Shown here in pieces: positions 10,555-57,500 of a stretch of 64,000 bases of DNA. Source of the DNA: Pseudomonadota bacterium (lineage in GTDB: Bacteria > Pseudomonadota > Gammaproteobacteria > Burkholderiales > Rhodocyclaceae); NCBI GenBank assembly GCA_029776255.1, contig JAKOTN010000083.1:61487-125486 (forward strand), given 5' to 3'. The notes beneath the pieces are model-generated. The model did no database searches, was not told where the DNA came from, and worked only from the letters and a program-made list of their open reading frames with translations. The translations under genes were made by a program, and so were the position numbers. Positions within the stretch are counted from its first letter, which is position 1. Every line of letters begins with the position of its first letter.

Positions 10555-11682
10555 TTACACACCCGGCTGCAAGGTCACCGTCACGTCGATTTGACGACCG
10601 TCGCGCAAAATCTTCAGCGTGACCGTTTCGCCAACGCGGCGGTCGTCGAGCCGCGCGAGCAACTTGCCCACGGAGTCCACCGTCTTGCCATCGACGGCGA
10701 TGATCACGTCACCAACGGCCACGCCGCCATCGGGCAACAACTTGGCGCCCAACAAACCGGCGGCTTCGGCAGCCGAACCGGGCGCCACGCGCAAGACGAC
10801 CACCCCGTCGACACCGAGTGCCCGCTTCAGCCGGTTGTTCAGACCCTCGTCGAAGGCGGCCCCCAGCGCCGGACGGACATACTTGCCGCCGGCGATCAAT
10901 TGCGGAACGACGCGATTGACGGTGTCCACCGGTACCGCGAAACCGATGCCGGCGCTCGCGCCACTCGGGCTGTAAATGGCGGTATTGATTCCGATCAGCC
11001 GGCCGGCCGAGTCGAGCAGCGGCCCGCCGGAGTTGCCGGGGTTGATCGCGGCGTCGGTCTGGATCAGATGCTCGATGGTGTTGCCGCTTTCACCGCCCAA
11101 CGAACGGTCCAGCGCCGATACGATGCCCGTGGTCAACGTCCAGTCCAGGCCAAAGGGATTGCCGATGGCGAATACCTTCTGACCCACCTTGAGATCGGCG
11201 CTACTGCCCAGCGGTACCGGCGGCGGACGTTTGAAGCCGACACCGATACGCAGCACGGCGATATCGTGCGCTGGCGAGGCGCCGACCAACGCCGCGCGAT
11301 AGCTACGGCCGTCCGCGAGTTTTACCGACGCCTCGCTGGCATTTTGAATGACATGAAAATTGGTGATCACGTGTCCAGCGTCGTCCCAGATGAAGCCAGA
11401 CCCAGTGCCGCGCGGAACGGTAAACACATCGCGCGTCCAGAAATCGCGCACCTGCGCCTTGGTGGTGATGAACACCACCGAATCGCGACTATTTTCGAAC
11501 AAGGCGATGGTCGCCTTTTCATCGTCCGCGAAATCCCCGCGCGCAGCCACGGTGCGCGGCACGGCCTCGCGAGGCAACAGCCAGTCTTCCAGCACCGGCA
11601 TGACCCGCCAGACGGCGATCAACATGGTGGCCGCCAGCGTCATCCAGAGCAGGCGGACGAGAAAACGATCGTTGTTACCCAT
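10555..11682 (-). CDS. HtrA/DegS-type periplasmic serine protease
   Basis: A 375-aa S1C protease anchored by one N-terminal membrane helix (residues about 10-27, LLWMTLAATMLIAVW). The triad is visible: His in ITNFHVIQN, Asp in AHDIAVLRI, Ser in NPGNSGGPLLD. One PDZ domain (about 275-370, with GDVIIAVDGKTVDS) follows, as in DegS rather than the two-PDZ DegP. It is therefore likely an envelope stress protease or regulator. AAGGAAA precedes the ATG, and cbpA ends 17 bases upstream, so the two are probably one transcript from the sigma-32-like promoter ahead of cbpA. Confidence 0.92.
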   Translation of the reverse strand: MGNNDRFLVRLLWMTLAATMLIAVWRVMPVLEDWLLPREAVPRTVAARGDFADDEKATIALFENSRDSVVFITTKAQVRDFWTRDVFTVPRGTGSGFIWDDAGHVITNFHVIQNASEASVKLADGRSYRAALVGASPAHDIAVLRIGVGFKRPPPVPLGSSADLKVGQKVFAIGNPFGLDWTLTTGIVSALDRSLGGESGNTIEHLIQTDAAINPGNSGGPLLDSAGRLIGINTAIYSPSGASAGIGFAVPVDTVNRVVPQLIAGGKYVRPALGAAFDEGLNNRLKRALGVDGVVVLRVAPGSAAEAAGLLGAKLLPDGGVAVGDVIIAVDGKTVDSVGKLLARLDDRRVGETVTLKILRDGRQIDVTVTLQPGV

Positions 11683-11699
11683 GCGCTTTCCTTTTGCGT

Positions 11700-12665
11700 T
11701 TAGTCGTTTCGCCGTTGCGGCGCCATCGCCCGCGGATCGAAATACAGTTCCCTGGCCATTGTTTCGTACAGGGTCCGCGCTTTTTCGGAATCTGCCGGCG
11801 GCAACACCACGTAAACGTCGAGCAGCAGATCTCCAGGCGCCTGGCCGGGAAACCCCTTGCCGCGCACCCGTAACTGCCGGCCGCTCTGCGTGCCAGCGGG
11901 TATGCGCACCTTGACGCCACCGTGTGGCAAATCAACCGCCACCACCGCGCCCAGGGCGGCCTCCCACGGCGCCACCGGCAAGCCGAGATGCAAATCGCGC
12001 CCCTGGGCGCGGAAACGCGGATGTGGCCGGAATGCGACTTCCAGCAACAAATCGCCGGCTGGTGCGCCGCAGTGCCCGGGCGCTCCCTGCCCGGCGAGAC
12101 GAATCACCTGTCCAGCATGAACACCCCGAGGAATTTTCACGTTCAAGGTCCGATTTTCGACCGTCACCCGGCCTTGCGCGTCGCTTCTCGGCACGCGCAA
12201 GGCGATCTGCCGGGTGGCCCCGGTAAACGTGTCTTCGATATCGAGCAGCACCTTGGCTTGATGATCCTCGCCGCGCGCCGCTAACGGCCCACGCGCTGAA
12301 AAACCGAAACTTCGTCCGGCCTCCCGGCGACCGAAAAGCTCCGCGAAGAAATCCGAGAAGTCGCCAGCCGCGGCATTTCCGAAGCCGTGCCTCGAAAACT
12401 CGAAGCCGGCGTCCCAGTCGGGCGGCGGCCGGAAATCCTGTCCGGCCCGGTAGCCCTTGCCGAGTTGATCGTAAGCGGCCCGTTTCTCGCTATCCTCGAG
12501 AACGGCGTAAGCCTCGTTGATCTCCTGCATGCGCGCTGCCGCGTCCGCCTCCCGGGACACATCCGGATGATAGCGGCGCGCCTGCTTGCGAAACGCCTTC
12601 TTGATCTCCTCCGCCGTGGCGTCGCGTGACACCCCCAGAATCTGGTAATAATCCTTGAATTCCAT
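11700..12665 (-). CDS. cbpA: CbpA-type DnaJ co-chaperone
   Basis: A 321-aa J-protein: N-terminal J domain (residues 1-70, with the HPD motif in RRYHPDVSRE), a Gly/Phe-rich linker, and the two C-terminal beta domains (KIPRGVHAGQVIRLAGQG, then VRIPAGTQSGRQLRVRGKG). There is no cysteine zinc-finger, which separates CbpA from DnaJ. It stimulates DnaK ATPase. The ATG at 12665 (MEFKDYYQILGV) has GAGGT upstream and matches the family start; the longer track start is rejected. Divergent from the Hsp20 genes and upstream of the HtrA-type protease. Confidence 0.93.
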   Translation of the reverse strand: MEFKDYYQILGVSRDATAEEIKKAFRKQARRYHPDVSREADAAARMQEINEAYAVLEDSEKRAAYDQLGKGYRAGQDFRPPPDWDAGFEFSRHGFGNAAAGDFSDFFAELFGRREAGRSFGFSARGPLAARGEDHQAKVLLDIEDTFTGATRQIALRVPRSDAQGRVTVENRTLNVKIPRGVHAGQVIRLAGQGAPGHCGAPAGDLLLEVAFRPHPRFRAQGRDLHLGLPVAPWEAALGAVVAVDLPHGGVKVRIPAGTQSGRQLRVRGKGFPGQAPGDLLLDVYVVLPPADSEKARTLYETMARELYFDPRAMAPQRRND

Positions 12666-12703
12666 CACCAACCTCATCGCGCAATAGCTGTCGACCAGCA
12701 TGT

Positions 12704-12766
12704 GACTATGGGCGCCACGGAGCCGGCTTTCAAGATATTGAAAGTGGCGCGAGAGACCCAAGATTC
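12704..12766. promoter_or_regulatory. Divergent sigma-32-like promoters sharing a palindrome
   Basis: The perfect inverted repeat CTTTCAAGATATTGAAAG (12727-12744) supplies a heat-shock -35 element in each direction. Plus strand: TTGAA, 14 bases, CCCAAGATT, reading toward hsp20. Minus strand: CTTGAA, 15 bases, GCCCATAGT, reading toward cbpA. Both fit the sigma-32 consensus CTTGAA-N13-15-CCCCATNT reasonably well. The genes on both sides are heat-shock genes, which agrees. Confidence 0.65.
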
Positions 12767-12817
12767 GAGTTGCGCGTCAAACACGACGCCCTTCGTCCAT
12801 TCTAAGGAGACCCGATC

Positions 12818-13252
12818 ATGATGTATCGTTCCCTATTTCCCCGCGACTGGCTCGCGGAACTCGATCGCTTGCAACGCGACGTCCAGAATTCGTTCCAGTT
12901 CTCACCCAGCATCCGCGGCATCGCACGCGGCGGCTTCCCGGCGATGAACGTCGGCGGCACGCCGCAGTCGGTCGAAATCTTCGCTTTCGCGCCTGGAATC
13001 GATCCCGCCACTCTCGATGTGCAGATCGAGAAGGGCGTGCTCACCGTCGCTGGCGAACGCCAGCGCCAGCACGCCGGCCCGGAAGCGACGCTGCATATCG
13101 ACGAGCGCTTCGAGGGCCGCTTTCGCCGGGTCGTGACCCTGCCCGACGACATCGACCCGAACGCCGTTGACGCGAAATACCGCGATGGTGTGCTGCGCAT
13201 CAGCATCGGTCGCAAACAATCCGCGCAGCCTCGGCGCATTACCGTTCAATAA
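12818..13252 (+). CDS. Hsp20/alpha-crystallin small heat-shock protein 1
   Basis: A 144-aa small heat-shock protein. The alpha-crystallin domain spans about residues 45-140, with APGIDPATLDVQIEKGVLTVAGER, the central FEGRFRRVVTLPDDID and the closing YRDGVLRISIGRK. The N-terminal region (FPRDWLAELDRLQRDV) is the usual variable arm. It acts as an ATP-independent holdase. TAAGGAG lies about 10 bases before ATGATG, so either methionine could start. It heads a two-gene unit under the sigma-32-like promoter. Confidence 0.93.
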   Translation: MMYRSLFPRDWLAELDRLQRDVQNSFQFSPSIRGIARGGFPAMNVGGTPQSVEIFAFAPGIDPATLDVQIEKGVLTVAGERQRQHAGPEATLHIDERFEGRFRRVVTLPDDIDPNAVDAKYRDGVLRISIGRKQSAQPRRITVQ

Positions 13253-13264
13253 GGAGAAGCGATC

Positions 13265-13639
13265 ATGTCCGACAACACCGCTGCCAGAAAACCGACCGCC
13301 AACGATGAAACGGCCTTGCTGCCGCCGGTCGATGTCATCGAGGATGCCTCGGGAATCACCCTTTACGCCGATTTGCCCGGCGTGCCCAAGGACAAGCTCC
13401 ATCTTCATGTCGAAGCCGACACCCTGACCATCGAAGGCGATATCGATCTGGAAATGCCGGAGGGAACGGTCGCCAGCCACGTCGAAGTCAGCCTGCCGCG
13501 TTATCGCCGGGTCTTTACCTTGTCCAAGGAACTGGATTCGAGCAAGGTCAGCGCCGAATTCAGTCAGGGCGTGTTGAAACTCGGCATTCCCAAGGCCGAA
13601 CATGCCCAACCGCGCAAGGTTGAAGTCAAGGTGCTGTAA
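13265..13639 (+). CDS. Hsp20/alpha-crystallin small heat-shock protein 2
   Basis: A 124-aa second Hsp20, 12 bases after the first and with AAGGAG ahead of its ATG. The alpha-crystallin domain (about 20-120) shows ITLYADLPGVPKDKLHLHVE, LPRYRRVFTLSKELDSSKV and FSQGVLKLGIPK. Tandem class-A/class-B-type Hsp20 pairs often form mixed oligomers; whether these do is not known. Confidence 0.93.
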   Translation: MSDNTAARKPTANDETALLPPVDVIEDASGITLYADLPGVPKDKLHLHVEADTLTIEGDIDLEMPEGTVASHVEVSLPRYRRVFTLSKELDSSKVSAEFSQGVLKLGIPKAEHAQPRKVEVKVL

Positions 13640-54500: not shown

Positions 54501-57500
54501 AACCGGTGCGTCGTTGACCGAACTCACCGACAACGAGACCACGTTGCTCTCGGTCGAAAAAGCGGTGGTACCGCCCTGCGGGCTGCTGTTGGCACGCCCA
54601 CCGGCGCTACCGCTGGTCTGATCCCAGGCGCGATACGTGAAATTGGCTTCCGTGCCATTCTTGCCGTCGGGAATGAAACGGACATAGGCGGTCGACGACA
54701 ACAACAAGGCATTGGTCGCCGAAACGCTGCCGATAGTGCTCCACGTGCCGTCACTGCCGTTGGTCGAGTCGAGCGAGTACTGCCACGTGCCATTGCCGGC
54801 GGTCAACCCGGTGATGGCAATGCCTTGTAGCGCGCCGTTGTCGACGTCGGAAACGTTGGCGCCGAGCAAGGTCGAGACCAGCAGGCTGCGCCCATCGGCG
54901 GTGTCGTCCTCGGTGATCGACACCAGCGTGGTGTCGCCGTCGGCCAGTAGGGGCGCATCGTTGCGCTGCTTGACGACGATCGTGTTTGTGGCCGTGACGG
55001 TGTCGACGCCGTTGATCGCCGTTCCCTCGTCATCGGTGTAGCTCGCGGTGCCGCCGCCATCGACGAAGGTGTAGCTGAGCGTGCGCGTGGCTTGCGCGGT
55101 CGCCTGCGAGGCGTTGGCGGTGTCGGTGTTCTGAAAAGTAAGGTTTTCCAGCACGGCTTTGACCGCGGCGACGTCGGCGTTGCCGTTGAACGTGATCTTC
55201 AAATCGCTGCCATTAACGCCATTTTTGCTGGCGTCGATGGTGCCGATCGACACGCCGTTGTAACGCACGTCGCTACCAACGACGCTGATCGCTCCGAGCC
55301 CGCTCAGCGCCAACTGGTCGCCGGCCGCGAACCCCGAGGTGTAGGCAATGGTCAGCGTGCTGCCGCTGTTGTAATGTCCGTTGACATCGTTCGCCAGATC
55401 GGCGTCGCTGAACAACACCGACGCGTCGATGATCGTCTGGCCGTCATCCTCGAAATAGGTTAGCGGATTGAGCCCGGATAATTTCGGTGCGTCGTTCACC
55501 GGCAGAATCGTGATGTCGAAACGACCGGGCGGCTCGCTGGAGCCGCTTCCGTCCGAAATCACGAAATCGAAGAAATCGGTGGACGGCGTCTCGGAGCCGT
55601 TGTGACGATATTTGAGATAGCCATCCTGGACGTCGGCAAGCGTAAACGCCGAACCGCTGCCGAGCACGGTAATCACACCGCCTTTGTCGAGATACAGCGT
55701 TCCGTATTGAACGGCGGAGGTGATCCGGAACTGTGTCTGACGGCTCGAATTGTCGATATCGGTGTCGCCCGTTTGCTCGGACCCGAGCATGGTCGGGCCA
55801 ATATGGCGCACGCCGCCCTCCGGAACGCTGGCACCGGTGTTGTTGAACACCAGCGGCGGGTCGTTGTGCGGGATGATATCGATGGTGACCGTCGCCTCGT
55901 TGCTGTCCTGGTTGACCGGCGCGTCGGTGGCTTTGTCGTTGACACGCCATTTGAAGCTGTCAGCGGTCGATTCGCTGCCGTCCTGGACGTAACGCAGCTT
56001 GCCGCCAACGAGCATGTCGTAGGTGAATTGCGCGGACGCGGTGCCAAGATCGCCCGGCAACAGGGCAACGAAACCGCTGCCACGGTCGATTTCGATCCTC
56101 CCGTGCGCCGGCAAGGCCGTGATGGTGTAAACAAAACCGGACAAGGCGTTGTCGCTATCGGTAGACGACAGGATCGTCGCGTTCAAAACCTTGATCCGCC
56201 CGGCGTTGTCGTCGGCGTGGCCCGACCCCTGCGAGCTGTATCCTTCCTCGACGGAGAACGCGCTGTCGACCGCCGCCGGCGGATCGTTGACGTTGGCGAT
56301 CACGAAATTCACCGTGCGGCTCGGACTGCGACCAATGTTGCCCTTGGCGATCGACAATTGGGAATCGCCATCGTCGACGGTGACCGTCCCCTTCTCGCTG
56401 ATCGACGGCGGGCTGATCAGCAAGTCGCCAACCTGGACGACGCTGCCGTCGACCAGATAGACGCTGATCGAATCGTTGCGCAATTCGGACGCGGGATCGT
56501 GAAAATAAGCGATCTTGCCGTCGGCGACATCCTGCGCGGCGAAACGCTCGCCAGCCGCCAACGCCACCCACGCCGACCCGCTGGCATCCCAGCGACGGAG
56601 CTGACCTCCGCTTGGCGCGCTTTCAAGAACGTAGGCCAAGGCCCCGATCGCGCTGTCCGGGTCGTGATATTGCAGATTGGCCAAAGTCAGCTTGACCGCG
56701 TTGCCGACGCCCGCGAGCGTGAAGCTGTTGCTTCCGTCGACCAGGCTTTGCTCAAGCAGCGTCGTGCCGTCCTGATTGGTGCCGACCGTTCCCTGCGTCT
56801 GGGTAATCGTTGGCGCGTCGTCAACCGGCGTGACGGTCAGATCGACGGTCGAACTGCCTGATACGCTGCCACCACTGCGACTGACAGTGAAAAAGTCGTG
56901 ATACGGCGAGGCGAAAGCATCGGGTTCGCTACCGTCGCTGACATAGACCACTTGCCCGGCGTCGATCTGCGCCTGAGTGAAACTACCGCCCATGGCAAGA
57001 ACGATGCCATTGACATAAATCGAGCCATGCGCGGGCGCGCTGGACAGGGTGTAGATGCTCGAATCGGTCAGCGCTCCCGTCAGCGAACGGAAGGAACCTT
57101 CGGCGACGATGGCGCCCAGCGTTCCTCCCGGTTCCGGCGGCACAGGAACATCGGGGACGATATTGATCGGCAACGTGCCGCTGGCGATGCCGCCATCCTT
57201 GTCATTGACCGAGAAGGTGAAACTGTCGTCGGCGGTCAGCGGATTGCCGTCGGTCGCCGAGCCGTCGTGAGTGTAAGTCAGACGGCCCGCCGCGAGATCC
57301 GCCTGGGTGAAGGTCGCCCCGGCGCCAACGATGACACCGTTCAGCCGCAAGGTGCCATGGGCGGGAACGGTGCTGATGGTGTACAAGCGATCGGAGGCCG
57401 GGCTATCGACATCGCTGGCGCTGAGAAAACTTTCGCTTATCGTCACCGCGGCACCGCCTTGTTGCGCCGACAACAAGTGCGTCACCGGAACCGGTGCATC

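Follow-up and report, generated by a model that had tools for sequence, protein, structure and literature searches.

Predicted back-to-back sigma-32 promoters with abutting -35 elements between the divergent hsp20 and cbpA genes of Candidatus Accumulibacter

The 64-kb stretch of DNA analysed here (the window) is assigned through its named relatives to Candidatus Accumulibacter, a wastewater bacterium. Judged from the sequence, the divergent intergenic region at 12666–12817 (152 bp, no strand) very probably holds two back-to-back sigma-32 promoters, one directing hsp20A-hsp20B rightward and the other cbpA-htrA leftward. The putative -35 elements meet in a palindrome, CTTTCAAGATATTGAAAG (12727–12744, no strand), with 7 bp arms (12727–12733 and 12738–12744) that are 100% complementary and separated by 4 nt. 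The predicted cbpA -35 element is the heptamer CTTGAAA on the minus strand (12728–12734), and that of hsp20 is ATTGAAA on the plus strand (12737–12743). The two heptamers do not overlap, with 2 bp between them, and their TTGA cores, written TCAA-N4-TTGA, lie 4 bp apart, or approximately 10 bp (about one helical turn) centre to centre. On the hsp20 side, a predicted -10 element CCCAAGAT (12757–12764, plus strand), supported by both a sigma-32 matrix and the congeners, follows after an N13 spacer. For cbpA, the candidate -10 element is GCCCATAG (12706–12713, minus strand) at N14, although the alternative N13 register CGCCCATA is also possible, and is favoured by the matrix.

The flanking genes had been named as cbpA-htrA and an hsp20 pair in an earlier note on this DNA, and Pfam and NCBIfam matches agree: DnaJ/DnaJ_C for CbpA, Trypsin_2-PDZ for the HtrA/DegQ type protein, and two HSP20 proteins. 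The J-domain co-chaperone gene cbpA (11700–12665, minus strand) starts from an ATG at 12665 and encodes 321 aa beginning MEFKDYY, while the htrA/degQ-type serine protease gene (10555–11682, minus strand) starts 17 bp past the cbpA stop. On the plus strand, the small heat-shock protein gene hsp20A (12818–13252, ATG at 12818) is followed 12 bp downstream by a second, hsp20B (13265–13639). The gene for the CbpA inhibitor, cbpM, is absent from the whole genome of the window species (at the corresponding site, 11683–11700, minus strand, just 17 bp separate cbpA and htrA) and is present after cbpA and before htrA in the other 24 congeners with the locus. The CbpA of the window species (11700–12665, minus strand) also sits on a long branch (0.31) of the genus tree and has an unusual residue make-up, possibly linked to the loss of its partner CbpM. 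An hsp20-1 gene has been described as confined to Accumulibacter clades of warm reactors (PMC11131965); the present pair occurs in all 25 congeners with the cbpA locus and is therefore probably not that gene.

The sigma-32 match was assessed with a two-block matrix trained only on the dnaK, groES and clpB promoters of the genus, with hsp20 and cbpA left out. A plain TTGAAA-N-CCCAT scan of the organism's own genome had mostly returned matches without heat-shock genes, and the trained matrix was used instead. The training promoters take the form CTTGAAA-N13-CCCCANNT for dnaK, CTTGAAA-N14-CCCTATTA for groES and (G/C/A)TTGA-type-N13-CCCCATNT for clpB. When every position of the 64 kb window was scanned on both strands, the hsp20-ward site ATTGAAA-N13-CCCAAGAT ranked first of approximately 128,000 positions (17.8 bits), and the cbpA-ward site CTTGAAA-N13/14-(C)GCCCATAG ranked fifth (13.0 bits). 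The dnaK, groES and clpB sites of the same genome score 22.1–24.6, above both divergent sites, but were themselves part of the training set; the window -10 elements CCCAAGAT and GCCCATAG deviate from CCCCATNT. The genome encodes RpoH (TIGR02392, 396.5 bits, over the family cut-off). The earlier proposal that the palindrome gives a -35 half to each of two divergent sigma-32-like promoters is well supported by these ranks and by the wide conservation described below. The second-best sigma-32-like site of the window is CTTCAAA-N13-CGCCATTT at 55197–55224 (plus strand, 17.2 bits). The fourth, CTCGAAT-N13-CGCCACTT (12742–12769, minus strand, 13.8 bits), points towards cbpA and overlaps the hsp20 promoter; it is probably due to chance, and conservation of it was not seen.

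The divergent order of hsp20B-hsp20A and cbpA is found at 25/25 Accumulibacter loci, and also occurs in Cupriavidus, Thiobacillus, Thioalkalivibrio, Propionivibrio, other Rhodocyclaceae and Burkholderiales. We collected 55 non-redundant divergent hsp20/cbpA gaps from Accumulibacter, Cupriavidus, Rhodocyclaceae, Burkholderiales and others; TCAA-N4-TTG(A/T) is present in 33 of them compared with 0.25 expected from Markov-shuffled gaps, with the proviso that the gaps are related by descent and the counts do not represent independent events. A further 10 gaps have a core spacing of N5, N6 or N7. Cupriavidus necator also has the N4 layout. The 4-bp core spacing is held while the length of the gap ranges from 123 to 225 bp, and on the CbpA tree the N4 form turns up at scattered places on all the main branches, so that this layout is probably old and would have been lost several times. 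A strict two-sided pattern, TGGG-N16/17-TCAANNNNTTGA-N17/18-CCA, yielded 10 scattered matches in 10 genomes among 399 genomes of the order, and 1 match for its reversed control; it missed the window's own site and was dropped as too strict for measuring spread.

Within the genus, the two promoters are not kept equally well. The hsp20 -35 element (TTCAA on the other strand) is retained in 25/25 congeners, and nearly all have CCCCA at the hsp20 -10 position. The cbpA -35 element, TTG(A/T) at N4 or N5, is found in 18/25, with the cbpA arm degraded and the hsp20 arm intact in 7, while the cbpA -10 element at N14 reads CCCCATTT, CACCATTT or GACTATTT in congeners. When the 25 Accumulibacter sequences are anchored on the core, information peaks at TGGGG, which is the hsp20 -10 element read from the opposite strand, at ACTTCAATATCTTGAT, which covers both -35 elements, and at the cbpA -10 element; it is low in both spacers. 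The hsp20 side is the stronger, better-kept promoter, and the cbpA side is weaker.

It had also been suggested that the palindrome might be a repressor site. According to this reading, CTTTCAAGATATTGAAAG would be the operator of a dimeric repressor controlling both units, with the likeness to -35 elements secondary. A clean palindrome with 7-bp arms in a divergent promoter region indeed occupies the classic operator position, and the genome encodes HrcA. However, CTTTCAAGATATTGAAAG is not CIRCE, and CIRCE itself (TTAGCACTC-N9-GAGTGCTAA) has no match in the window at up to 3 mismatches. The palindrome is the sole match in the window at up to 2 mismatches (0.10 expected) and a single copy in the whole 3.79-Mb genome, where a search allowing up to 3 mismatches found four further places versus one with the reversed pattern; a second operator copy is thus lacking beyond these few 3-mismatch matches. 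Across 34 N4 loci, dyad symmetry is full or nearly so at positions 3–6 (TCAA/TTGA) and fails at 7, 8, 10 and 11, and the loss of one arm with retention of the other in 7 congeners is at odds with a repressor dimer, which would need both. As regards conservation of the palindrome in relatives, which the earlier note had named as a check, the TCAA-N4-TTG(A/T) core stood and the outer symmetry did not. Most congeners read TTGAAG on the hsp20 side and TTGATT on the cbpA side, so the full palindrome of the window is a chance local feature produced by two good -35 elements. Lastly, the N4 motif occurs in only 1/45 cbpA loci without a divergent hsp20. This control favours a promoter pair over an operator belonging to cbpA, because the mirror half is present only beside an hsp20 gene that it could serve. 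Because the symmetry ends after TCAA/TTGA and the arms decay separately, we favour the promoter pair and regard a repressor operator as highly improbable. A generic dyad operator was likewise rejected, as the arms are not conserved as a unit and decay independently of one another.

The uneven conservation bears on a second alternative, whereby the hsp20 side alone is a sigma-32 promoter and cbpA is mainly transcribed by sigma-70 from an overlapping promoter. Such a promoter can be written down: TTGAAA-N17-CATAGT, a sigma-70-like sequence with a 9/12 match, overlaps the cbpA promoter, and in six congeners TTGATT-N17 is followed by TAT-rich hexamers. The degraded cbpA -35 in 7/25 congeners, set beside an hsp20 -35 kept in all, points in the same direction, as does the status of E. 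coli cbpA as a stationary-phase gene (PMC3547828). In contrast, the cbpA site of the window still ranks fifth for sigma-32, its N14 spacing is that of groES, and relatives such as L015, L019 and L205 possess near-consensus sigma-32 -10 elements at cbpA. We consider a mainly sigma-70-driven cbpA unlikely; the cbpA promoter may nevertheless also be read by sigma-70.

Downstream of the predicted hsp20 start, the leader contains a hairpin, GCGTC-AAACAC-GACGC (12776–12791, plus strand), that begins approximately 5 nt inside the putative transcript (start ~12771) and occupies the same position in 25/25 Accumulibacter loci. Congeners have GCGCC...GGCGC and variants in place of the GCGTC...GACGC of the window, and many other genera have a hairpin of different sequence in a comparable position. 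Among 28 aligned leaders, both partners have changed in 4/7 pairs, with a covariation score above that of all 500 shuffles; because the non-Accumulibacter rows were picked for having a hairpin, the genus rows alone are unbiased in this respect. The hairpin supports the hsp20 start because it fits an mRNA beginning there, and is perhaps an mRNA-stabilising 5' stem. An RNA thermometer was considered for the hsp20 leader and rejected: an Rfam search of the leader gave no family match, and the Shine-Dalgarno region lies outside the conserved hairpin.

With the two sigma-32 promoters as the preferred reading, both units would be turned on from a single 60-bp stretch once heat or protein stress raises RpoH, with holoenzyme binding either side and transcribing hsp20A-hsp20B or cbpA-htrA. 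Both units would be RpoH-dependent and heat-inducible, and this predicted co-activation is well supported by the sequence. Transcription would start at approximately 12699 (minus strand) and 12771 (plus strand), some 72 bp apart. The sigma-32 holoenzyme is reported to extend over heat-shock promoters as far as -60 (Cowing and Gross 1989, cited in PMC5263251); with starts ~72 bp apart, two bound enzymes would on that figure overlap on the mirrored -35 region, and the upstream footprint of each would cover the -35 element of the other. Mutual exclusion of the polymerases is thus sterically plausible and a reasonable inference. E. coli bidirectional promoters show competition only at strong transcription (PMC12825309), as would be expected during heat shock.

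Whether the geometry matters in itself is a separate question. Both promoters could be sigma-32-dependent and functionally independent; compactness and shared descent would then account for the fixed spacing, and the polymerases would not interact. Degraded arms are tolerated, as are gaps of 5–7 bp; where promoter strength is low there is hardly any competition between divergent RNA polymerases (PMC12825309); and the spacing could persist by common ancestry without functional need. Set against this are the persistence of the 4-bp core spacing in gaps of such varied length and the footprints, which should overlap if the holoenzyme reaches -60. Independence is a real possibility that in our estimate falls somewhat short of an even chance. 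A stronger proposal holds that the 4-bp spacing is itself selected: with -35 centres ~10 bp apart on the same helix face, two sigma-32 holoenzymes would either be mutually exclusive or bind next to one another, setting a fixed ratio or alternation of small heat-shock proteins versus CbpA in heat shock. This we put forward tentatively, and consider on the doubtful side.

No description of this promoter pair was found in the open-access literature. In common with the sigma-32 promoters of dnaK, groES and clpB, each side has a CTTGAAA-type -35 element, an N13–N14 spacer, a CCC(C/T)AT-like -10 element and a gene of the chaperone class downstream; in contrast to those promoters, there are two here, arranged back to back so that their -35 elements abut, and both score below the single ones of the same genome. 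The pair also resembles the prokaryotic bidirectional promoters (Warman 2021; PMC10268837; PMC12825309) in having a pseudo-symmetric element, predicted transcription both ways and an expectation of polymerase competition. Those studied are sigma-70 promoters that share a -10 element, with starts 7–25 bp apart (PMC10268837), whereas the -10 elements predicted here (12706–12713 and 12757–12764) do not overlap, it is the -35 region that is mirrored, and the starts would lie ~72 bp apart. The bidirectional promoters described so far share the -10; the present locus would add a conserved natural case with a mirrored -35 region and the same stress sigma factor on both sides, in which a short DNA fragment allows a direct test of polymerase competition versus cooperation at a divergent stress promoter. 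At hrpL/hrpJ of Pseudomonas syringae (PMC5263251), an alternative-sigma holoenzyme at one promoter similarly takes up the upstream region that this promoter shares with the divergent one. However, hrpL/hrpJ combines sigma-54 and ECF-sigma promoters back to back in a negative feedback, while both sides here match the same sigma factor. With regard to E. coli cbpA-cbpM, the J-protein is homologous, and cbpM still follows cbpA in most Accumulibacter species. Control of E. coli cbpA includes insulation by Fis and a promoter located in the neighbouring gene (PMC3547828), in contrast to the divergent hsp20 pair found here, in a window species without cbpM. In many Betaproteobacteria, among them the phosphorus-removing Accumulibacter, the arrangement would tie Hsp20 'holders' and a DnaK co-chaperone into one regulatory unit. 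As predicted from sequence, the pair falls within the broad class of divergent promoter pairs, as a variant that matches a single alternative sigma factor on both sides and whose -35 elements adjoin at a conserved spacing of 4 bp.
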